Part shown: positions 4,714 through 19,906 of the stretch, one piece after another
How positions within the stretch are numbered: the first letter of the stretch is position 1
Layout of the letters: each line of letters starts with the position of its first letter
NCBI GenBank assembly: GCA_002710725.1
Contig: PAKT01000043.1
Span: forward strand, 1 to 32,393
Reading direction: 5' to 3'
Source of the DNA: Spongiibacteraceae bacterium
GTDB taxonomy: Bacteria > Pseudomonadota > Gammaproteobacteria > Pseudomonadales > Spongiibacteraceae
DNA length: 32,393 nucleotides
Position numbers and translations under genes: made by a program
The notes under the pieces: model-generated
What the model saw: the letters and a program-made list of their open reading frames with translations, nothing else
Told to the model about the DNA's origin: nothing
The model's database searches: none

Positions 4714-4755
4714 GTAGACTGAAACCCTCCAGAATCTCGAGGTTCGCTGAAATTG

Positions 4756-7700
4756 ATGGTCACTATCGCACGAGCGTTGCTGCTGCTTGCTCTGGCTTCT
4801 GCGAGTCTGGCGAATGAGCGAGTTGTTTTGCAGCTTAAATGGGAGCCCCAATTCCAGTTCGCGGGCTATTACGCGGCGCTGTGGCAGGGCTACTATGCAG
4901 CCGCAGGACTGGAGGTCGATATTGTTCCGCTGGCGGATGAGGCCGGTCGCTTCCGCAACGTCCAGCAGGAGCTTATCGACGGTCGCGCCGACTTTGCCAT
5001 TGGTGGCAGCGATATTCTGGTGGGGCGCGATCAGGGGCATCCGCTGGTTGTTCTGGCCCCCATCTTTCAGCGCAGCCCTGGCGCTCTGGTTACACTGGCG
5101 GATCTCCAGCTGCGCTCATTGCGCGATCTTTCCGGACTGCGCATCGCGGTCAACCCCAACGACTTCGTCGCCAAGGAACTGCAGGCGCTGATAGCGGCAA
5201 GGGTAAACCGGGCAGAGCCCCCCGTGCTGGTTGACGAGCCGCTGACGCTGAAAACCCTGCAGTCGGGGAAGGCCGATGTGCTTCTGACCTACGGGATTTC
5301 GGCGGAGTACGAGGCCCGGGAAGCAGGTCTTGATGTCCGTACGCTGGCTATTTCTGATATCGAACCGACTTTTTTTGGCGACACCCTCTATACCCATCAG
5401 CGGGTGATCAACCGCTCGCCCGACCGGGTGCGCCGCTTTCTTGAGGCGAGCCTGCAGGGCTGGCACTACGCCATGACCCATAGGGAAGAAATGATTGAGC
5501 GCATCGCTGCCTTGCCGCGTCAATTCAACCCCTTTGAGTCGCTGGAGGGATACAACCGCTTTTTCGCCGATAACACCAGCAGCCTGCTGTACTACCCCCA
5601 TATTCCGGTGGGTTTGAATGAGCCGGAGCGCTGGCGGCAAATGCACCGACTGCTGAGCGATGCGGGCCTGCTGCAAGCTGAATACCCCGGCAGCGAACTG
5701 CACTTTCGGATGGATCGACCGGAAGCTGCGCCAAAGACCCCCTGGTTTGCGATGGTTCTGCTTGGTGGTGGCCTTGTGCTGGCGATACTGCTGATTCGCT
5801 TGCCAGGCCGTTATTCGCTTCCGCTCGCTGCGGCCGGCATCGTTGTTGCCCTGGCTTACGCGCTCGAGGTGCAGTTAAAGGAGCGTCATCAAGACCAGCA
5901 ACACAAAGATGTCTGGGCTCAGCTGGCCGGTATCCGGGTGCAGCTTGAGGGCAGGATCAATGGACAGTTCGCCTTGCTGCGGGGGGTGGTGGGTTTGATT
6001 GCCTCAGAGCCCGACCTTGATCAGAAACGCTTTTCCGAATTTGTGGGCGGCCTGATTGATCAGGACCCGCTGCTGGTGAATGTTGCGGCAGCGCCGGATC
6101 TGGTGGTGCGCCATGTTTATCCACTGGCGGGCAATGAAAAAGCCGTCGGCCTCAACTATCGAACCAATGCCGAGCAGCTGCCGATGGTTGAGCTGGCCCG
6201 GGATCTGCGACGCATGATCGTCGCCGGGCCACTGGAGCTGGTGCAGGGCGGGCGAGCAATTATCGGAAGAGCGCCGGTTTACCTCTCCAAGCCTGGAACA
6301 GACAGCTTCTGGGGCATTGTCTCGGCGCCGGTGGATTTTGACCGCTTGATCGATGATGTCGGCTTGAACGCGCCCAATCTGGGTTTGGAGATAGCCATAC
6401 GTCACGGCCGTCTGGCCTGGGCTGTGAATGGTGAGCCACTGATTTACGGTGATATGGATGTATTCGACCGTGAGCCGGTCAGCATGCAAGTCTCGCTGGG
6501 TGCGGTGGAGTGGGAAATTGCCGCCCTGCCCAAGGGGGGGTGGCGTGACTTGCCGGCCTCGCTGGCCTGGTACTGGCCGACCGCACTGGGTCTTGCCCTT
6601 GCGCTGGGGCTGGCACTCTATCTTGCTCTGCGTCAGTTCAGCGCGCGACTGCAGATAAGCAATGAGTTCAAGCGCAACGAAGGCCTACTGCGCCGGGTGA
6701 GTCAAAGCGCCGATGTCGGTGGCTGGGAAATCGATTTGCGCAGCGGCTGCGAATATGTGACCGACGAAGTGTACCTGCTGCACGGTACAACGCCCGACGC
6801 AGGCAAAGGCGCCTCGCCAACACGCTGGTTCAACTTTTACGATGATGCCAGCCGCAACCTGATCCGCACCCGAATTCGCGAGGCGATCGATACCGGCGAA
6901 ATTCAGGATTTTGAGGTTATGGTTGAGCGCGATGACGGCTCACCGGTGTGGCTCCGCCATATTGTTGAACCCGCGCGCAGCGATGGTCGCATTACCCATT
7001 TGCACGGCGTGGTTCAGGATATCTCCCCCATCCGTCAGGCGGACAAAACCATTCAATACCATGCAACCACAGATCCGGTCACGGGTTTGCCCAATCGCAT
7101 CCAGTTCAGCCAGCGCCTTGCGGCGGCGCTGGCATCGCCGCGCGGTTATGCCTACAAGATTGCGGTGCTGTTTATCGACCTCGATCACTTTAAAGACATC
7201 AACGATTCGCTGGGTCACGGAGTCGGTGACCAGTTGCTGAAGTCGCTGGGGCATCGCTTCAGCGCCATGCTGCGCGACGAGGATGTCGTTGCTCGTTTGG
7301 GCGGTGATGAGTTTACCGTCATGTTGCCCGGTATCACTGATGCAGACTCCTGTACCCGTGTCGCTCAGGAAATTATCGCCCTGACTCAGGAGCCGATAAT
7401 GATTGACGAGCACGAGGTTCATATTACCGCCAGTATCGGCATCAGCCTGTTCCCGCAGGACGCCAGCGATGTGGAAACTCTGTTGCGACATGCAGACCAG
7501 GCGATGTACGCGGCGAAAGCGGCCGGGCGCAACACAGCGCGTTATTTCACGGCCTCCATGCAGGAGGACGTGGACCGACGTCACAGAATGCATATGCAGC
7601 TTGCGACGGCTCTGAAGGAGCGCGAGCTATCCGTTTTTTACCAGCCCATTGTCGATGTTCGCAGTGGCGAGATTGTGAAGTGCGAAGCGCTGGCGCGCTG

Positions 7701-8343
7701 GGGTGACATCCCGCCTCAGGAATTTATATCGCTGGCAGAGGATACCGGCCTGATTGGCGAGCTGGGTGAATTCGTCATGCTGCAGGCCTGTGAGGACGTT
7801 GCCGCCATAAATGCGGAAACCGGCCGGACAATCAGCATGGCCTTTAATAAATCCACCCGGGAGTTTGTTGAAGAATCGCGAACCCACAGCTCGGTGCTCG
7901 AGCAGCTCAGAGCGCAGGAACTGTTCCCGAATATCACGGTTGAGATAACCGAAAATCTCTTGATGCAGGAAAGCAGCGAAACCATTGAGCACCTGATGGA
8001 GTTGCGTAAAGCCGGTCTGAAAATTGCGATAGATGATTTTGGCACCGGTTATTCATCGCTCAGCTACCTGCAGAAATTCCCGGTCGATATTGTCAAGATC
8101 GATAAGTCGTTTATCTGTGACATTGAAGGCAACGGTGATGCCCGCTCGCTGGTTAGAGCCATTATCTCAATGGCGCAGAGTCTGCGGCTCAATGTGGTGG
8201 CCGAAGGCGTGGAAACCGCCGGTCAGCTCGCGATACTGCGCCAGCTTAACTGTGACTATGTGCAGGGCTATTACTATTCGCCGCCACTGCCCCGGGACAA
8301 GTTCATTCAGTATCTCCGCAATTACAATCGCTTTTCTGCCTGA
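4756..8343 (+). CDS. SBP-CHASE-PAS-GGDEF-EAL membrane protein (c-di-GMP turnover)
   Basis: This 1195-residue protein has these parts in order. A signal peptide (MVTIARALLLLALASASLA) leads into an NMT1/THI5-like periplasmic binding domain (about 20-300; LQLKWEPQFQFAGYYAAL). Two transmembrane segments follow (about 330-348 and 353-372), then a CHASE domain (about 390-560; GNEKAVGLNYRT) and a third transmembrane segment (about 595-620). The cytoplasmic part has a PAS domain (about 640-760), a GGDEF domain with intact GGDEF (849-853) and an RxxD inhibitory site (RDED, five residues upstream), and an EAL domain with CEALARW (E977), VEITEN, IDDFGTGYSSL and VAEGVE. Both catalytic domains look active. 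The two periplasmic sensors suggest ligand-controlled synthesis or breakdown of c-di-GMP. TTG at 4753 abuts the chosen ATG. The ligand is unknown; THI5-like domains bind pyrimidines and other small molecules. Confidence 0.93.
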   Translation: MVTIARALLLLALASASLANERVVLQLKWEPQFQFAGYYAALWQGYYAAAGLEVDIVPLADEAGRFRNVQQELIDGRADFAIGGSDILVGRDQGHPLVVLAPIFQRSPGALVTLADLQLRSLRDLSGLRIAVNPNDFVAKELQALIAARVNRAEPPVLVDEPLTLKTLQSGKADVLLTYGISAEYEAREAGLDVRTLAISDIEPTFFGDTLYTHQRVINRSPDRVRRFLEASLQGWHYAMTHREEMIERIAALPRQFNPFESLEGYNRFFADNTSSLLYYPHIPVGLNEPERWRQMHRLLSDAGLLQAEYPGSELHFRMDRPEAAPKTPWFAMVLLGGGLVLAILLIRLPGRYSLPLAAAGIVVALAYALEVQLKERHQDQQHKDVWAQLAGIRVQLEGRINGQFALLRGVVGLIASEPDLDQKRFSEFVGGLIDQDPLLVNVAAAPDLVVRHVYPLAGNEKAVGLNYRTNAEQLPMVELARDLRRMIVAGPLELVQGGRAIIGRAPVYLSKPGTDSFWGIVSAPVDFDRLIDDVGLNAPNLGLEIAIRHGRLAWAVNGEPLIYGDMDVFDREPVSMQVSLGAVEWEIAALPKGGWRDLPASLAWYWPTALGLALALGLALYLALRQFSARLQISNEFKRNEGLLRRVSQSADVGGWEIDLRSGCEYVTDEVYLLHGTTPDAGKGASPTRWFNFYDDASRNLIRTRIREAIDTGEIQDFEVMVERDDGSPVWLRHIVEPARSDGRITHLHGVVQDISPIRQADKTIQYHATTDPVTGLPNRIQFSQRLAAALASPRGYAYKIAVLFIDLDHFKDINDSLGHGVGDQLLKSLGHRFSAMLRDEDVVARLGGDEFTVMLPGITDADSCTRVAQEIIALTQEPIMIDEHEVHITASIGISLFPQDASDVETLLRHADQAMYAAKAAGRNTARYFTASMQEDVDRRHRMHMQLATALKERELSVFYQPIVDVRSGEIVKCEALARWGDIPPQEFISLAEDTGLIGELGEFVMLQACEDVAAINAETGRTISMAFNKSTREFVEESRTHSSVLEQLRAQELFPNITVEITENLLMQESSETIEHLMELRKAGLKIAIDDFGTGYSSLSYLQKFPVDIVKIDKSFICDIEGNGDARSLVRAIISMAQSLRLNVVAEGVETAGQLAILRQLNCDYVQGYYYSPPLPRDKFIQYLRNYNRFSA

Positions 8344-8484: not shown

Positions 8485-9153
8485 ATGGCAGAAATCCTGA
8501 TGGTGCGGCACGGCCAGGCGGCCTTTGGCACCGATAACTATGACCGGCTCACGGAGCTGGGCTGGGAGCAATCGCGCATTCTCGGCGAGCATTTTGCGGC
8601 GACCGAGCCGCAGTTTGACAGGGTGTTTACCGGCACCCTGCGCCGTCACCGGGAAACCCTTGCGGGTATTCAGCAGGCCCTGCCGGCGCTGCCGTCGGCA
8701 GTGGAGCTTGCCGGGCTTAACGAGTTTGATTTTCACGCGCTGGTAGTGGCCTATCGCAGTCAGTGTCTTGGCGCAGAAGCTGAGCTGGATATAACTGACG
8801 CGCGAACCTTTTACGGTTGTCTGCGCGAGGCTTTGCTGGCCTGGAATCGCAATGAATTGGACGGGCTGGCCGAAGACTGGGGCGGTTTTGAAACGCGGGT
8901 GCGCGGCACGCTGGCAGAAATTGCCGCAACGCGCGGGCGGGTGCTGGTGGTCAGTTCCGGTGGTCCGATCAGCGCCGTGGTGCGGGAGGTTATGTCACTG
9001 GGCGTGGAGCAGATGGTCAATCTCAATCTGCAGGCCGTCAATACCGGTATCACCCGCTACTTCGGCAATCGCAAACACTGGCGGCTCAATATGTTTAACG
9101 CGGTGCCGCACCTGGAGCCCAGTCAGCACCGTCATTTGATTACTTATACCTGA
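8485..9153 (+). CDS. Histidine-phosphatase-superfamily protein with altered second His motif
   Basis: The protein has 222 residues. The N-terminus ILMVRHGQA (R8-H9-G10) is the phosphohistidine motif of the phosphoglycerate-mutase/SixA superfamily. FTGTLRRHRETL supplies the usual second arginine. Where the family normally has a second catalytic His (SHGG), this protein reads VVSSGGPIS, with Ser158 in the His place; it may belong to a subfamily with a different mechanism or weak activity. It lies 93 bases upstream of an acyl-CoA dehydrogenase and phosphotransferase pair, in the same direction. It may be their partner or simply the first gene of the same operon. No substrate can be assigned. Confidence 0.85.
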   Translation: MAEILMVRHGQAAFGTDNYDRLTELGWEQSRILGEHFAATEPQFDRVFTGTLRRHRETLAGIQQALPALPSAVELAGLNEFDFHALVVAYRSQCLGAEAELDITDARTFYGCLREALLAWNRNELDGLAEDWGGFETRVRGTLAEIAATRGRVLVVSSGGPISAVVREVMSLGVEQMVNLNLQAVNTGITRYFGNRKHWRLNMFNAVPHLEPSQHRHLITYT

Positions 9154-9245
9154 GGAGCCTTTGTTCATTCGTCATTGCGTCGCCGTGTAATGACGTGAAT
9201 AGTGAATCAATCAGCGCTTCTCCTATTCTGATCGGGAACACGACC

Positions 9246-10481
9246 ATGGATTTCACACCTTCAGCAAAGTCCCAGCAACTCCTGCAAACACTCGAACGGT
9301 TTTTTGACGACTACATTTACCCGAACGAGGTGCAGTACGCCCGTCAGCTACACGACGCTGAAAATCGCTTTGCGGCCCTGCCGCTGATGGATGAGTTGAA
9401 AGCCAAAGCGAGAGCCGCCGGCCTGTGGAATCTGTTTGTACCGCCATCGCACGCGGAGTACTGCGACCTCGGCGGCCTCAGCTTCAGTGACTACGCGCCG
9501 CTGGCTGAACTGATGGGTCGGGTGCAGTGGAGCCCTGAAGTGTTTAACTGTAATGCGCCCGATACCGGCAATATGGAAGTGCTGATGAATTTCGGTACAG
9601 AGGCCCAGAAAGACAGGTGGCTGAGACCGCTGCTCAATGGCGAGATTCGGTCGTCCTACGCCATGACCGAGCCACAGGTTGCCTCCAGCGATGCGACCAA
9701 CATTGAGCTGCGGATTGAGCGCGACGGTGACGAGTGGGTACTGAACGGGCGCAAGTGGTTTATCACCGGCGCCATGTACGAGCGCACAAAAATCTTCATC
9801 GTGATGGGTAAGTCTGATCCGGATAATCCCAACCGCCATCAGCAGCAAACCCAGGTGCTGGTACCCAAAGACACGGCCGGCCTTGAGATTATCCGGCCGC
9901 TGACCACACTGGGCTATGACGATGCGCCGATTGGTCACGCGGAGCTGGTGTTCAACAATGTACGGGTACCCGCGGAAAATGTACTGCTCGGTGAAGGGCG
10001 CGGTTTCGAAATCGCCCAGAGCCGATTGGGGCCGGGCCGGATGCATCACTGCATGCGCTTGATTGGCGCCGCTCAGCGCGCGCTGGAACTGGCCTGTCAG
10101 CGTGCGGTAGCGCGCACCACCTTTGGCCGGCCGCTGAGCAAGCATCAATCGGTGCGTGAAGATATTTCGAAAAGTTTTTCGGAAGTGGAGATGGCGCGCT
10201 TGCTGGTGCTGAAAACCTGCGACAAGATAGATCGCGAAGGGGTTGCCGAATCCATCGATATGATTGCTGCTACCAAAACCACCGTGCCGCTGCTGGTGCA
10301 GAATCTGATCGATCGCTGCATGCAGCTACACGGCGCGGGTGGTCTGACCGAGGATTATTTTATGGCCGAGGCCTTCAACTATGCGCGCTGGTGTCGACAG
10401 GCCGATGGCCCGGATCAGGTGCACCAGATGGCCTTGGGCAAAAAAATTATTGATCGCTACAGTGGACAAGAATCACGATGA
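9246..10481 (+). CDS. Acyl-CoA dehydrogenase of the ACAD10/11 (LvaC) type
   Basis: This is a 411-residue FAD enzyme. It shows the ACAD signatures YAMTEPQVASSDATN and GRKWFITGA. The C-terminal run LHGAGGLTEDY followed by ADGPDQVH resembles the C-terminus of human ACAD11 (ADGPDEVH). In ACAD10/11 and the Pseudomonas levulinate protein LvaC, this domain acts on a 4-phosphoacyl-CoA made by a partner kinase and eliminates phosphate to give an enoyl-CoA that enters beta-oxidation. I chose the ATG at 9246 (MDFTPSAKSQQLL), preceded by GGGAA; an upstream GTG at 9195 would add 17 residues without family character. Its stop overlaps the start of the next gene (ATGA at 10478-10481), indicating translational coupling with the kinase. 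Confidence 0.93.
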   Translation: MDFTPSAKSQQLLQTLERFFDDYIYPNEVQYARQLHDAENRFAALPLMDELKAKARAAGLWNLFVPPSHAEYCDLGGLSFSDYAPLAELMGRVQWSPEVFNCNAPDTGNMEVLMNFGTEAQKDRWLRPLLNGEIRSSYAMTEPQVASSDATNIELRIERDGDEWVLNGRKWFITGAMYERTKIFIVMGKSDPDNPNRHQQQTQVLVPKDTAGLEIIRPLTTLGYDDAPIGHAELVFNNVRVPAENVLLGEGRGFEIAQSRLGPGRMHHCMRLIGAAQRALELACQRAVARTTFGRPLSKHQSVREDISKSFSEVEMARLLVLKTCDKIDREGVAESIDMIAATKTTVPLLVQNLIDRCMQLHGAGGLTEDYFMAEAFNYARWCRQADGPDQVHQMALGKKIIDRYSGQESR

Positions 10482-11500
10482 CGACACTGGAACTCGATAC
10501 CACAAAGCTTGAGCGCTATCTTTCGGCGCATATTCCCGAATTCAAGGGGCCCTTAAGCGCCGAGAAATTTGCCGGTGGTCAGTCCAACCCGACTTATCTG
10601 CTTACCAGTGCCAGTGGACGCTATGTGCTGCGCCGCAAGCCGCCGGGTGAGCTGCTGAAATCTGCGCACGCGGTCGACCGGGAATTCAGGGTCATGAGCG
10701 CGCTGGCGTCCACGGCCGTTCCCGTGCCAAACATGCGCGTACTCTGCGAGGACGACAGTATTATCGGCTCTATGTTTTACGTGATGGATTTTGTTGAGGG
10801 GCGCATCTTCTGGAATGCGGCATTGCCGGAGCAGACTAACAGTGAGCGCGGCGCCATTTACGATGCCATGAACCGGGTGCTCGTAGATCTGCACAATGTA
10901 GATGTTGATTCGGTTGGTCTGTCTGACTACGGCAAACCCGGCAATTATTTTGAGCGCCAGATTTCGCGCTGGACCAAGCAGTACCGCGCCAGTGAAACCG
11001 AAGCCATTCCCGCCATGGAAACACTGATGCAGTGGCTGGAGCACAACAAGCCGGATGACGACGGCCTTGTGTGTATCAACCACGGCGATTTCCGCCTCGA
11101 CAACATGATGTTTCACCCCAACGAAAATCGGGTGTTGGCGCTGCTGGATTGGGAGCTGTCTACCCTCGGTCACCCCTATGCCGACCTGGCCTATCAATGC
11201 ATGCAGTGGCGCATTCCCACCGACGCCGCGATTCCGGGCTTGGGCGGTCTGGATCGGGATGCGCTGGGCCTGCCGAGCGAGGCGGCCTACGTGCGGCGTT
11301 ACTGCGAGCGTCGCGGCATTAGCGGAATCGATAACTGGACCTTTTATATCGCGTTTGCCTTTTTCCGCCTGAGCGCTATTTTGCAGGGCATTCAAAAACG
11401 GGCGCTGGACGGCAATGCCTCCAGCGACAAGGCTCAGGCTTACGGGGCGCTGGCGCGACCGCTGGCCGAGCTGGGCGTAGAGACGATCGAAAATGGCTAG
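10478..11500 (+). CDS. ACAD10/11-type phosphotransferase (APH fold; LvaA-like)
   Basis: This 340-residue protein has the aminoglycoside-phosphotransferase fold. Catalytic HGDFRLDN (H202-N209) and metal-binding LLDWELS (D224) are intact. FAGGQSNPTY and RRKPPGELLKSAHAVDREF are the hallmarks of the kinase half of ACAD10/11, and DYGKPGNYFERQI also matches. In that family the enzyme phosphorylates the 4-hydroxyl of 4-hydroxyacyl-CoAs, so this is unlikely to be an antibiotic kinase. The ATG overlaps the stop of the dehydrogenase by four bases, so the two mammalian domains appear here as a coupled gene pair. The exact acyl chain cannot be read from sequence. An aminotransferase/omega-amidase pair and an acyl-CoA ligase lie further right, but not in the same transcript. 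Confidence 0.92.
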   Translation: MTTLELDTTKLERYLSAHIPEFKGPLSAEKFAGGQSNPTYLLTSASGRYVLRRKPPGELLKSAHAVDREFRVMSALASTAVPVPNMRVLCEDDSIIGSMFYVMDFVEGRIFWNAALPEQTNSERGAIYDAMNRVLVDLHNVDVDSVGLSDYGKPGNYFERQISRWTKQYRASETEAIPAMETLMQWLEHNKPDDDGLVCINHGDFRLDNMMFHPNENRVLALLDWELSTLGHPYADLAYQCMQWRIPTDAAIPGLGGLDRDALGLPSEAAYVRRYCERRGISGIDNWTFYIAFAFFRLSAILQGIQKRALDGNASSDKAQAYGALARPLAELGVETIENG

Positions 11501-11581
11501 CGCATCCCAGAACCGGCGCGCTTTCGCGCGCCAACATGACCCATGTAGTAGGCTCTGGCTGTCTGACTGAACAGAGGGCGA

Positions 11582-12055
11582 ATGGTGCAGCGCGGTTTTA
11601 CCCTGATGGAAATGCTGGTGGTGCTGGCGATCATTGCCATACTGGCCACAATGATGGTGCCCAGTCAGGGGCATCGCAATATCCAGACTCAGGTAGTTGA
11701 GAGCGTTGAGCTGGTCGATGGCTACAAAGCCGCGATTGAAGCCTACTTTCGCGCAGCGGGTTCCTTTCCCGCAGACAACGAGCAGGCGGGCATGCCGGCG
11801 CCGGAACTGCTGATGGGCAATTACCTGCAGCGGGTTGACGTGCTTGACGGTGCCATGCACCTGATGATGGGGAACAAGTTTCCAGCGTCACTGCAGGGCA
11901 GCGTCGTCAGCTTGCGGCCCCTGCTTGTTGAGGGTTCACCGTCGAGCCCGATCTCCTGGGTGTGCGGTTACGACGAAGTGCCGGAGGGCATGAAGGCGAC
12001 GGCCGATAATCGCACCGATCTGGAAATCAAATATCTGCCGCTGCGCTGTCGCTGA
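11582..12055 (+). CDS. Type IV pilin-like protein (prepilin)
   Basis: The protein has 157 residues. A very short leader ending in Gly5 precedes FTLMEMLVVLAIIAIL, the class III (PilD) prepilin signal with phenylalanine at mature position 1 and Glu at mature position 5 (E10). The hydrophobic helix is followed by a soluble domain. A Cys pair near the end (C128 and C156) would close the D-region loop typical of type IVa pilins, and the ending YLPLRCR also resembles that family. A GAGGG ribosome site lies just before the ATG. No other pilus genes lie nearby, so it is an orphan pilin or minor pilin that would depend on a pilus or type II machine elsewhere. It sits 81 bases after the phosphotransferase and converges with the omega-amidase. 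Confidence 0.85.
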   Translation: MVQRGFTLMEMLVVLAIIAILATMMVPSQGHRNIQTQVVESVELVDGYKAAIEAYFRAAGSFPADNEQAGMPAPELLMGNYLQRVDVLDGAMHLMMGNKFPASLQGSVVSLRPLLVEGSPSSPISWVCGYDEVPEGMKATADNRTDLEIKYLPLRCR

Positions 12056-14142: not shown

Positions 14143-15765
14143 ATGCTTGCGCCCATGATGGAAAGTCCGTTACTGATTTCCGGTCTGCTGGAATTTGGTG
14201 TAGTCAGCCACCCCGACGCGGAAATTGTCAGCCGCAAGGTTGAAGATGGCAGTATTCACCGAACCACCCAGAAAGAGGCGGCCAAGCGCACCCGCCAGCT
14301 CGCCAACGCCTTGCTGAACTGGGGCGTAAAACCGGGTGACCGCATAGCGACGCTGGCCTGGAATACCTGGCGCCACTACGAAGTGTATTACGCCACGGCG
14401 GGTATCGGCAGCATTTGCCACACCGTCAACCCCCGACTGTTCCCGGAGCAGCTCGAGTATATTTTCAATCACGCCGAAGACCGTATGCTGTTTATCGACG
14501 TGAACCTGATGCCTATTATCGAGCCCTTGATCGACAAGCTGCCTCATCTGCAGGCCATTGTGGTGATGTGCGACAAGGCGCATATGCCAGACAGCAAGAT
14601 CGACAAGCTGATCTGCTACGAAGACTTCATTGCGGCCCACAGCGATGAGCTCGCCTGGCCCCAGTTTGACGAGAGCACGCCCTGTTCGCTGTGCTACACC
14701 TCGGGTACCACCGGCAACCCGAAGGGCGTTCTGTATACCCACCGCTCCACCGTGTTGCACGCCATGGCAAGCCTGCATGCGCAGGTGCTCGATATCAGCT
14801 CCGACAGCGTCATACTGCCGGTGGTGCCGATGTTCCACGTCAACGCCTGGGGCCTGCCCTATGCGGTGACCATTACCGGTGCCAAACTCGTGTTCCCCGG
14901 CGCCGCTATGGATGGCGCCAGCCTGTGGGAGCTGATCGAGGCGGAATCGCCCACCCTGCTGGCGGGTGTGCCCACCATATGGCTGGGGCTGCTGAACCAC
15001 CTCGACAGCATCAACAAAACGCTGGACAGCGTCGAGCGAGTGATCGTTGGCGGCTCGGCCGCACCGCTGTCCATGATCAGGGCCTTTGATGAAAAACACG
15101 ACGCCTTCCTTCTGCACGCCTGGGGTATGACAGAGATGTCGCCCATCGGCACGGTGAATGCGCCTACCAAAAAGCTGCTGAGCCTGCCCAAAGAAGAGCG
15201 CTATAAAAAGCAGCTCAAGCAGGGCAAGCCGGTCTACGGCGTTGAAATGAAAATTATCGACGACGAGGGTAATGAGCTGCCGCGCGATGGCAAGGCTTAC
15301 GGTCGCCTGATGGTGCGCGGCCCCTGGATCGTCAACAGTTACTACAAGAGCGGCAAGCTGGCGACCGAAGACGGCTGGTTTGATACCGGCGACGTGGCGA
15401 CCCTCGATGCTGACAACATGATGCAGATCGTCGACCGCAGCAAAGATGTGATCAAATCCGGTGGCGAATGGATCAGCTCCATTGATCTGGAAAATGTTGC
15501 TGTGGGTCATCCTGCTGTTGCCGAGGCCTGCGTTATCGGCATCGCCCATGAGAAGTGGCAGGAACGGCCGCTGCTGCTGGTGGTGCTAAAAGACGGCGCC
15601 AGCGCCACCAAGGATGAGATTATCGATTTTCTCAAACCCCAGCTGGCCAGTTTCTGGGTGCCGGACGATGTGGTGTTCCGCGACGAGCTGCCGCATACCG
15701 CCACCGGCAAACTGCTGAAAGTGCCGCTGCGCGAAGAGTATGCGGGCCACTACATAAAATCGTAA
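14143..15765 (+). CDS. Fatty-acyl-CoA ligase (AMP-forming)
   Basis: This 540-residue adenylate-forming enzyme activates a carboxylic acid to acyl-AMP and then acyl-CoA. The ATP-binding P-loop reads [25 protein letters not shown] is motif A5, [11 protein letters not shown] is the ribose-binding Asp motif, and [15 protein letters not shown] is the hinge. The C-terminal catalytic lysine is in [21 protein letters not shown] near the start and the overall pattern match the medium/long-chain fatty-acid ligase clade (AlkK-like), which often uses medium-chain or unusual acids. The AAGGAG six bases before the ATG fixes the start. Seven bases after its stop begins a shikimate-kinase-like gene, so they are probably co-transcribed. 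It could feed the ACAD11-type pair upstream, but that is only a possibility. Confidence 0.93.
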
Positions 15766-17293: not shown

Positions 17294-17312
17294 ATGAGGC
17301 CGAAGGCCTCAT
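17294..17312 (+). other. Perfect hairpin before the first BLUF gene
   Basis: ATGAGGCC-GAA-GGCCTCAT is an 8-base perfect stem with a 3-base loop, 113 bases after purU and 20 bases before the BLUF start. No T-run follows. It may stop transcription from purU weakly or act as a 5' leader structure of the BLUF mRNA. An ATG in its left arm is in frame with the BLUF gene, but initiation there is unlikely because the stem would mask it. Confidence 0.45.
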
Positions 17313-17332
17313 CAACAGGCTTTAATAGTCAT

Positions 17333-17737
17333 ATGAAAGAACTCATACAAATCATATATATAAGCTCATCAAAAGAACTTTTAGATGAAGATCAACTTTG
17401 TGAGCTTTCTTCTTCTTTCAGTAGAAACAATGAAGAACATGGAATTACTGGCTTGCTTTTATATAAAGATGGCAGTTTTATGCAAGTTATTGAAGGTGAA
17501 AAGCTAAACATCGAGCAACTGTATTTCAATATTGAAAAAGACACCAGGCATTCGGGCGTGGTGCAGCTTATTAAAGAATCAATTGCTCAGCGTCAATTCC
17601 CTGAGTGGTCAATGGCAGTCAAACATATACCACCAGAAAAAAACCCGGAATTCTCTGATTTTTTTGTTTCAAACAATGCTAACGCCACTTTAGGTCATAT
17701 GGCTAAAACTCTTCTGAAGAGTTTTAAAAACGTATGA
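17333..17737 (+). CDS. Short BLUF blue-light photoreceptor (first copy)
   Basis: This 134-residue protein is little more than a BLUF domain (about 2-97), which binds FAD and senses blue light. All key residues are at the spacing seen in cyanobacterial PixD: Y9 (IIYISS), N33 (NNEEHGITGLLLY), Q51 (FMQVIEG), W92 and M94 (EWSMAV). It should therefore be photoactive. About 35 C-terminal residues form the helical cap typical of short BLUF proteins, which signal by protein contact and have no output domain of their own. I chose the ATG at 17333 because the BLUF strand starts at once; an in-frame ATG at 17294 lies inside a hairpin. Its DNA is markedly AT-rich compared with purU, suggesting transfer. 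A second BLUF gene lies 1.7 kb downstream. Confidence 0.92.
   Translation: MKELIQIIYISSSKELLDEDQLCELSSSFSRNNEEHGITGLLLYKDGSFMQVIEGEKLNIEQLYFNIEKDTRHSGVVQLIKESIAQRQFPEWSMAVKHIPPEKNPEFSDFFVSNNANATLGHMAKTLLKSFKNV
17705..17725 (+). terminator. Perfect inverted repeat at the end of the BLUF gene (possible terminator)
   Basis: AAAACTCTTC and GAAGAGTTTT are perfect 10-base inverted arms around one T. They overlap the last codons of the gene and are followed by TAAAAACG. A hairpin with a 3-base loop would end in a T-rich arm (GTTTT), so a weak, possibly bidirectional, terminator is possible. The repeat could instead be coincidental in AT-rich coding DNA. Confidence 0.4.
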
Positions 17738-18268: not shown

Positions 18269-19117
18269 ATGAATAAAATGCATGCGGTCCGCTCGCTCAT
18301 GGCAGGAGCCCTGTTTTCGCTCTGCAGCCTTTTTCCCAGCACAGCGCTGTCGCAGGATGCTGAGCCAGCGTTTGCCTCGGGTACCTTTCATTTCTTCGAT
18401 ATTATTGTGCCGCAGTCCAAAGAGGTTATTAAGAAACTGCTGCCGCCTGGCTATACATTGGGGGATGCACCCAATGTCCTGACCAAGGGTGAAAATAATC
18501 ATGTGTTGCTGGTCTCCCTCGGTCAGGTGATCGAAAGCAAAATGTACGACAGCGTGCCTCTTCCCAGCTTTTACGACGTGAAGCTATCCATCCCCTATGT
18601 TAAGGCGCCCGGCATTGCGGGCCTCGTGGTATATGACATTGCCTATTTCTTTGAAAACCCGGCCATGTGCTTCGGTGTGTTCGCCGAGTGCCAGCCATCG
18701 ACGGTCAGTATGTCCTACGGTGACAGCGGCGCTTTCAGTGTCCGGCGACAGCTGCAGGACGCTTTCAGCTCGCCGGTGGTTCAAGGCAGCTACCAGCTTG
18801 ACTCCGAGAACGCCTCCACGGCGCTGACCAAAGCCGTTGATACCTACGTGAACACCCAGCTGATGCTGGGTTCTTCGCCGCTGTCCTGTAACACCATACC
18901 TACCTCGGCTTACCCTTCTTGCCTGGCCCGGGAAGACCGCTTTAGTGAGGCCAGCACGGGGCCGCGTACCTACCGGGTGAACCTTAAGTTGAAATTGGCC
19001 GAATTCGGTTGCCAGGCTGAAGGCCTGCCGGAGGTCCTGGAGGTGAACAATGTGATCGCGCTGGAAGGTATCATGCCCTTTCGGGCCGGCACTCCCCAGA
19101 CTTGCCCCGCAGAATAA
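18269..19117 (+). CDS. Exported protein of unknown function
   Basis: The protein has 282 residues with a clear signal peptide (charged start, hydrophobic core LMAGALFSLCSLFPS, likely cleavage after TALS), so the mature protein should be periplasmic or secreted. The mature part has several cysteines (AMCFGVFAEC, LSCN, PSCLA, GCQA, QTCPAE) that could form disulfides. The segment VIKKLLPPGYTLGDAP followed by a hydrophobic strand and YDVKLSIPYV recalls the acetoacetate-decarboxylase-like fold, but the match is weak and no catalytic lysine can be asserted. AGGA lies ten bases before the ATG. A second in-frame ATG (18278) would still leave a signal peptide. It stands between the small membrane protein and the second BLUF gene. 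Real gene: confident; function: unknown. Confidence 0.85.
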   Translation: MNKMHAVRSLMAGALFSLCSLFPSTALSQDAEPAFASGTFHFFDIIVPQSKEVIKKLLPPGYTLGDAPNVLTKGENNHVLLVSLGQVIESKMYDSVPLPSFYDVKLSIPYVKAPGIAGLVVYDIAYFFENPAMCFGVFAECQPSTVSMSYGDSGAFSVRRQLQDAFSSPVVQGSYQLDSENASTALTKAVDTYVNTQLMLGSSPLSCNTIPTSAYPSCLAREDRFSEASTGPRTYRVNLKLKLAEFGCQAEGLPEVLEVNNVIALEGIMPFRAGTPQTCPAE

Positions 19118-19450: not shown

Positions 19451-19906
19451 ATGGGGAATAACAATGACGAGGCTGAACTGATTCAGTGTATATATACTAG
19501 TGCTGAATCAATAAATTTCAGTCGAGATCAATTGTTGTCGCTGCTGGAAAGAGCCAGAGTGGTAAATTCTGGTTTAGGTATAACGGGAATGTTGCTGTAT
19601 GAGGATGGTTCATTCTTTCAGGTTTTGGAGGGGCCTCCGAACGCAGTTCGTTCGCTGTACAAAAAAATAAGCGCCGACAAAAGACATCGCCGCATCACCA
19701 AAATCATTGAGGAGCCGGTAGAACGTCGCTTACTGCCGGATTGGTCGATGGGATATTCATCTGTTACAAGAGAAGAGCTGAAGGAAGTTGACGGCCTCAA
19801 CGACTTCTTTCAAAAGGGAAAGTGCTACGCTGATCTGGATGAGTGTAGGGCAAAGAAGCTTCTTGATGCCTTTAAAGACGGCCGGTGGCGTGCGTCTTTA
19901 GGCTAG
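19451..19906 (+). CDS. Short BLUF blue-light photoreceptor (second copy)
   Basis: The protein has 151 residues: a BLUF domain (about 8-103) plus a C-terminal tail rich in charged residues. Key flavin-site residues are all present at PixD spacing: Y15 (QCIYTSA), N39 (VVNSGLGITGMLLY), Q57 (FFQVLEG), W98 and M100 (DWSMGY). It should bind FAD and respond to blue light. It shares the same layout as the first BLUF protein but is clearly diverged from it, so this is an old duplication or separate acquisition rather than a recent copy. The ATG has AGGA about nine bases upstream. No output domain is present; signalling must go through a partner or regulator. Base composition lies between that of the first BLUF gene and the GC-rich neighbours. 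Confidence 0.92.
   Translation: MGNNNDEAELIQCIYTSAESINFSRDQLLSLLERARVVNSGLGITGMLLYEDGSFFQVLEGPPNAVRSLYKKISADKRHRRITKIIEEPVERRLLPDWSMGYSSVTREELKEVDGLNDFFQKGKCYADLDECRAKKLLDAFKDGRWRASLG

Follow-up and report, generated by a model that had tools for sequence, protein, structure and literature searches.

ACAD10 and ACAD11, mammalian proteins of the acyl-CoA dehydrogenase (ACAD) family, phosphorylate 4-hydroxyacyl-CoAs and then eliminate the phosphate (PMC11342911, PMC12440821). Both of these studies trace the domains of the two proteins back to Pseudomonas putida, where LvaA and LvaC are encoded separately, and in vitro the domains of ACAD10 can be replaced by a kinase and an ACAD that are separate proteins in Burkholderia (PMC11342911). 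The two-gene arrangement is, in other words, already established. Here we describe a further member of it, found in a 32,393-nucleotide stretch of DNA (the window) from a Spongiibacteraceae bacterium (assembly GCA_002710725.1, contig PAKT01000043.1, positions 1 to 32,393; contig C43 in our numbering of this 2.9 Mb, 71% complete genome). Three genes stand there in a row on the forward strand, encoding a protein of the histidine phosphatase fold (HisP), an ACAD11-type dehydrogenase and an APH-fold kinase. As judged by alignment, HisP is a member of a distinct subfamily in which a serine, mostly within the motif [S/T]SGG, takes the place of the second catalytic histidine.

Several described systems are relevant to such a third gene. 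ACAD10 carries a HAD domain in which the DxD motif is reduced to its first Asp; the phosphatase activity of this domain is negligible, and it restrains the kinase (PMC11342911). In the lva operon of P. putida (LvaA kinase, LvaB, LvaC ACAD, LvaD and LvaE), the lvaB product interacts with LvaA (PMC6692424). The levulinate cluster of P. citronellolis LA18 has no lvaB, and a histidine phosphatase family gene lies between its kinase and ACAD genes; its authors suggested that the histidine phosphatase removes the phosphate from 4-phosphovaleryl-CoA and left the role open (PMC6692424). As for the fold, the second histidine has been described as fully conserved in the histidine phosphatase superfamily (PMC3866925) and as part of the two-histidine signature of 2H-phosphatases (PMC5501728).

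HisP forms a subfamily without the second catalytic histidine

The HisP of the window matches PF00300 (E value 3.5e-18), and its fold appears intact, as its AlphaFold2 model is confident (pLDDT 92.6) and the Foldseek matches of the model are histidine phosphatases. In common with branch 1 of the superfamily (CobC, PhoE, phosphoserine phosphatase, PGAM5), it has the RHG motif with the nucleophile His, the second Arg and the Glu. Unlike these enzymes, it has no second catalytic His; Ser158 occupies the site, at which the best relative in the Protein Data Bank (PDB), 9mmh, has His. The replacement holds throughout the subfamily, since all 96 members recovered in a profile search, every one of them above a clear score gap, have Ser at this position, and so do the annotated plasmid copies that were compared by alignment. 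The gap separates subfamily scores of at least 160 bits from the next PF00300 relatives, which score 63 bits or less; all of these relatives that reach the threshold have His at the site, reading SHG, AHG or VHG. The remaining catalytic residues are retained, with Arg8, His9, Arg54 and Glu80 kept in 73-74 of 74 unique aligned rows. Some relatives have HisP open frames of 384-935 aa, which would suggest gene fusions, although long open frames in GC-rich DNA are likely to account for the excess length. In the open-access literature, we found no report of a histidine phosphatase subfamily with Ser in place of the second His.

HisP occurs together with the kinase

We examined co-occurrence in a sample of 200 Pseudomonadota genomes. 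The HisP subfamily is found in 28 genomes and the kinase in 51, and all 28 genomes with HisP also have the kinase (hypergeometric P of 1.6e-20). Counted by genus, the kinase is present in 21 of 21 HisP genera, as compared with 34 of 110 overall (5e-14); it should be considered that both P values are inflated by the relatedness of the sampled genomes and thus overstate independence. Nineteen of the 30 HisP copies have a kinase gene within 2.4 kb on their own strand, and the order of the genes varies. The neighbours of the kinase-unlinked copies have no shared theme. Within the family, the relatives have the genes in the order HisP-ACAD-kinase. Elsewhere, the genes are arranged as thiolase-HisP-kinase in Sulfitobacter, ACAD-SDR-kinase-HisP-SDR in Pseudoalteromonas, HisP-kinase-SDR-SDR-ACAD in B. 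multivorans, HisP-kinase-SDR-ACAD in Azoarcus and Caballeronia, ACAD-kinase-HisP-SDR-SDR in Azospirillum and kinase-HisP in Deinococcus radiodurans; HisP is also found near the kinase in a deltaproteobacterium. On the kinase tree, HisP-linked kinases are present in both deep branches, and parsimony calls for about nine events in which the linkage was gained or lost, at least five of which are forced by well-supported branches.

In one same-order genome, the arrangement is HisP-SCP2-kinase-SDR, where the gene that separates those for the [T]SGG protein and the kinase encodes an SCP2 sterol-carrier-type protein of 102 aa (PF02036; L218, 6564-6872). It is possible that this protein serves as an acyl-CoA carrier for the pathway.

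The dehydrogenase and kinase match the ACAD10/11 type

An earlier note on this DNA had matched the dehydrogenase and phosphotransferase to the two domains of ACAD10/11, and the comparison with the mouse ACAD11 structures agrees (E values of 2e-111 and 2e-89, respectively). The dehydrogenase aligns over its full length with the ACAD domain of 8v3u/8v3v at 47% identity (phmmer E 2e-111), its best solved relatives being 4hr3 and mouse/human ACAD11 (E about 1e-111). It has equivalents of all of the residues whose roles in 4-phosphoacyl-CoA handling were assigned in PMC12440821, namely R626, R631, H634, the HCMR motif, R637 and D753. The eight-residue string at the tested sites is identical in 93 of 101 aligned family proteins, whereas an ordinary ACAD reads IRKIGAGE. 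In a maximum-likelihood tree of 63 rows (IQ-TREE), mammalian ACAD11 is nested among bacterial proteins that include the one in the window (97% SH-aLRT), and the ordinary ACADs fall apart from this clade; the tree comes from a quick search and has long outgroup branches. By its residues and its position in the tree, the dehydrogenase is assigned to the ACAD10/11 clade; the placement outside this clade that the earlier note had named as a refutation did not occur.

The kinase matches PF01636 (E 4.5e-54) and aligns over its full length with the kinase domain of mouse ACAD11 at 45% identity (phmmer E 1.6e-89). Its best solved relatives are this domain and 3dxp (E about 1e-89); the latter, a kinase of the same family, was deposited as a 'putative acyl-CoA dehydrogenase', which is probably a misannotation inherited from the fused ACAD10/11 proteins. 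Equivalents of the alpha-C Glu, R176, H218, D220, N225 and DWE of mouse ACAD11 are all present. The previously noted motifs are found as well, with ADGPDxVH (as ADGPDQVH) at dehydrogenase residue 386 and KPPGELL and AHAVDREF at kinase residues 54 and 63. In the mouse chain, DREF is numbered Arg84-Glu85, which is conserved in the window kinase; the published R86 does not fit that count. The kinase tree is compatible with such a relation, in that a clade at 98-100% holds both the window kinase and ACAD11, but the branch of ACAD11 is long there, as is the one with which it pairs. Among the curated NCBIfam models, none names the dehydrogenase or the kinase above its cut-off.

When compared with the known systems, the pair differs from mammalian ACAD10 and ACAD11, with which it shares full-length alignment of both domains and the same catalytic and phosphate-binding residues, in that the two domains are encoded by separate genes. 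The window has no HAD domain such as that of ACAD10 and has, instead, the separate HisP gene. In the Burkholderia pair (kinase Q63VL0, PMC11342911), the kinase and the ACAD are likewise encoded separately and belong to these families. In a B. multivorans relative, the kinase is 63% identical to that of the window and has the same HisP-like gene directly upstream, while two SDR genes stand between the kinase and ACAD genes. With the lva operon, the window shares the chemistry reported there on 4-hydroxyvaleryl-CoA, to the extent that our prediction holds. LvaC has the ACAD10/11-specific residues (PMC12440821), and LvaA is reported to be 29% identical to ACAD10/11 kinases (PMC11342911), as against 45% identity to ACAD11 for the window kinase; for LvaA and LvaC, the comparison draws on these published identities. 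LvaB-, LvaD (SDR)- and LvaE (acyl-CoA ligase)-like genes do not adjoin the window pair; the direct neighbours of the unit encode a GGDEF/EAL protein and a pilin-like protein, so that the LvaD and LvaE neighbours of the lva operon are absent. The P. citronellolis cluster has a different gene order, and its histidine phosphatase was compared with HisP through the published description.

Locus layout and genomic setting

The coordinates of the features are summarized in Table 1. The earlier note had described the span 8485-11500 as a two-gene locus coupled by an ATGA overlap. Both genes and the overlap are indeed there; the span, however, holds three genes, and HisP had gone unmentioned. No further gene lies between the three. 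The dehydrogenase frame is open from a GTG at 9195, while a start at the ATG at 9246 gives 411 aa; the ATG is the likely start, as the homology of relatives begins there and several of them have stops just upstream.

Table 1 Features of the three-gene unit, in window coordinates.
Feature	Position	Strand	Basis
HisP (222 aa) of the [S/T]SGG subfamily, with Ser at the site of the second catalytic His	8485..9153	+	PF00300, AlphaFold2 model, Foldseek, alignment
Arg8-His9 codons, RHG motif, nucleophile His retained	8506..8511	+	invariant column, 74/74 unique aligned rows
Ser158 codon, site of second catalytic His	8956..8958	+	alignment
ACAD10/11-type acyl-CoA dehydrogenase, predicted to eliminate phosphate from 4-phosphoacyl-CoA	9246..10481	+	similarity, residues, tree
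QSRLGPGRMHHCMR, equivalents of mouse ACAD11 R626, R631, H634-C-M-R637 (HCMR motif); R626, H634 and R637 are phosphate-binding	10017..10058	+	alignment
ADGPDQVH, catalytic Asp (mouse D753) replacing the usual Glu	10401..10424	+	aligned to LADGPDEVH
ATGA overlap of dehydrogenase stop and kinase start	10478..10481	+	sequence
APH-fold kinase, 340 aa, predicted 4-hydroxyacyl-CoA kinase of ACAD11 kinase-domain type	10478..11500	+	PF01636, residues
HGDFRLDN, catalytic Asp (mouse D220) and Asn (N225)	11081..11104	+	alignment
Hairpin GGCGCGC-TTTC-GCGCGCC 3' of kinase stop, without T-run	11515..11532	+	read from sequence

The hairpin possibly marks the end of the three-gene unit; it was not among the matches of a terminator scan, and a promoter scan gave no match above chance. 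Past the hairpin, a pilin-like gene starts at 11582. The upstream neighbour (4753-8343) encodes a 1196-aa protein with an NMT1/THI5-type periplasmic binding domain followed by CHASE, PAS, GGDEF and EAL domains, a cyclic-di-GMP enzyme whose sensor is apparently ligand-binding; a long version of this protein is also encoded upstream in one relative locus (L094).

No ligase, lactonase or SDR/ketoreductase gene adjoins the unit in the window. For this reason, the physiological substrates named in the earlier note (lipid-peroxidation products and gamma-lactones) should be regarded as speculation, and levulinate-like acids are equally unproven. A gene (14143-15765) resembling that for methylthiopropionyl-CoA ligase does lie 2.6 kb downstream of the unit, past two opposite-strand genes. 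Its product, an acyl-CoA ligase that scores 787.6 bits against the model for 3-(methylthio)propionyl-CoA ligase, close to the cut-off of 822, possibly belongs to the metabolism of dimethylsulfoniopropionate, and is followed by a shikimate-kinase-fold protein that is nearest to the homoserine kinase model NF040667, below its cut-off. Further on, two BLUF blue-light sensor genes (17294-17737 and 19451-19906) flank an open reading frame with no Pfam match (18269-19117), in a stretch with a GC content of 47-51%, as compared with about 60% in the remaining window.

The same genome has two more ACAD11-type dehydrogenase/kinase pairs, on contigs C72 (locus L220, 4453-7747) and C36 (locus L221, 4753-7145). 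The C72 pair has the order kinase-ACAD and lies downstream of SDR and zinc-alcohol-dehydrogenase genes. A HisP-like gene stands beside neither pair.

Discussion

Our reading, to which we give a probability of roughly 70%, is that the three-gene unit brings 4-hydroxyacyl-CoAs into beta-oxidation and that HisP, as its third member, targets the kinase or the product of the kinase. By analogy with tested relatives, the kinase would phosphorylate the 4-hydroxyl group of the acyl-CoA, and the dehydrogenase, using FAD and its Asp base, would remove the phosphate by elimination, with a 2-enoyl-CoA as the product. The earlier note had reached the same two-step chemistry, and we consider it very probable, with all of the tested phosphate-binding and catalytic residues present in both proteins. 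One may object that APH-fold kinases have many substrates, that no NCBIfam model names either protein above its cut-off and that lvaD- and lvaE-like genes are not adjacent, such that an ordinary beta-oxidation dehydrogenase might merely stand next to an unrelated small-molecule kinase, with the pair acting on a different acyl-CoA. This is, however, improbable given that the HCMR motif and the catalytic Asp, which define 4-phosphoacyl-CoA elimination and are absent from an ordinary ACAD, are present, that the alignment of the kinase with the fused ACAD11 kinase is full-length and that the two genes are translationally coupled.

The part played by HisP is less clear. HisP, which keeps its phosphate pocket and nucleophile His, probably works on the kinase or on its 4-phosphoacyl-CoA product. 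That it should be an unrelated housekeeping neighbour, brought into the operon by accident, is very improbable. Although 11 of 30 copies are not close to the kinase, and in Haematobacter HisP sits among other fatty-acid genes, such an accident does not fit with the 28 of 28 co-occurrence or with the tight same-strand linkage of 19 of 30 copies across Pseudomonadota, in several gene orders, with examples in Deinococcota and a deltaproteobacterium as well. As to what HisP does there, we infer, tentatively and at somewhat less than even odds, a regulatory role in which it would bind the product and restrain or tune the kinase. We prefer such a product-binding partner as the crippled HAD domain of ACAD10 offers a precedent, keeping one motif Asp and restraining the kinase with negligible phosphatase activity, and as P. 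citronellolis has a histidine phosphatase family gene where lvaB is missing. The main rival is a slow or selective phosphatase, as the nucleophile and acid residues are fully retained: an active enzyme of altered specificity that would repair dead-end 4-phosphoacyl-CoA or free 4-phospho-acids, for example of the enantiomer that is a poor substrate for the dehydrogenase. Free 4-phospho-acids do build up in cells when the ACAD10 kinase works, the R form being preferred by that kinase (PMC11342911), and dephosphorylation of 4-phosphovaleryl-CoA is what the P. citronellolis authors had in mind (PMC6692424). Set against this is the loss, in 96 of 96 members, of a His that is otherwise conserved superfamily-wide (PMC3866925, PMC5501728), and we hold the repair phosphatase to be possible, though not probable.

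Several points weigh against a dedicated action of HisP on the kinase step and should be considered along with the inflated P values. More than a third of the HisP copies (11/30) are not beside a kinase, and 23 of the 51 kinase genomes have no HisP, so that the dependence is one-way. According to the published description, the purified Burkholderia kinase and dehydrogenase worked when given nothing but the complementary part of ACAD10 (PMC11342911), and HisP is therefore not obligatory in that setting. Moreover, the retention of the nucleophile His and the acid Glu would fit residual catalysis as well as sensing. In a still wider proposal, which we put forward as a doubtful one, bacterial 4-hydroxyacyl-CoA kinases would have in the [S/T]SGG HisP a dedicated and widespread subunit with a regulatory or chaperone function, which would sense 4-phosphoacyl-CoA, restrain the kinase and be convergent with the HAD domain of ACAD10 and perhaps with LvaB.

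The pair of enzymes alone is ordinary and its chemistry is established; what the locus adds is a degenerate HisP subfamily that is tied to the kinase. This raises the question of why a kinase that makes a phospho-acyl-CoA, a potentially sequestering product, repeatedly travels with a phosphatase fold that is short of a catalytic residue. In bacteria this fold is that of a separate HisP, and in ACAD10 it is a HAD fold within the same protein as the kinase. If HisP is a regulator, the unit would provide a simple bacterial system for how the build-up of phospho-acyl-CoA is prevented, which is an open point in the ACAD10 work, and could also explain how P. citronellolis dispenses with LvaB.

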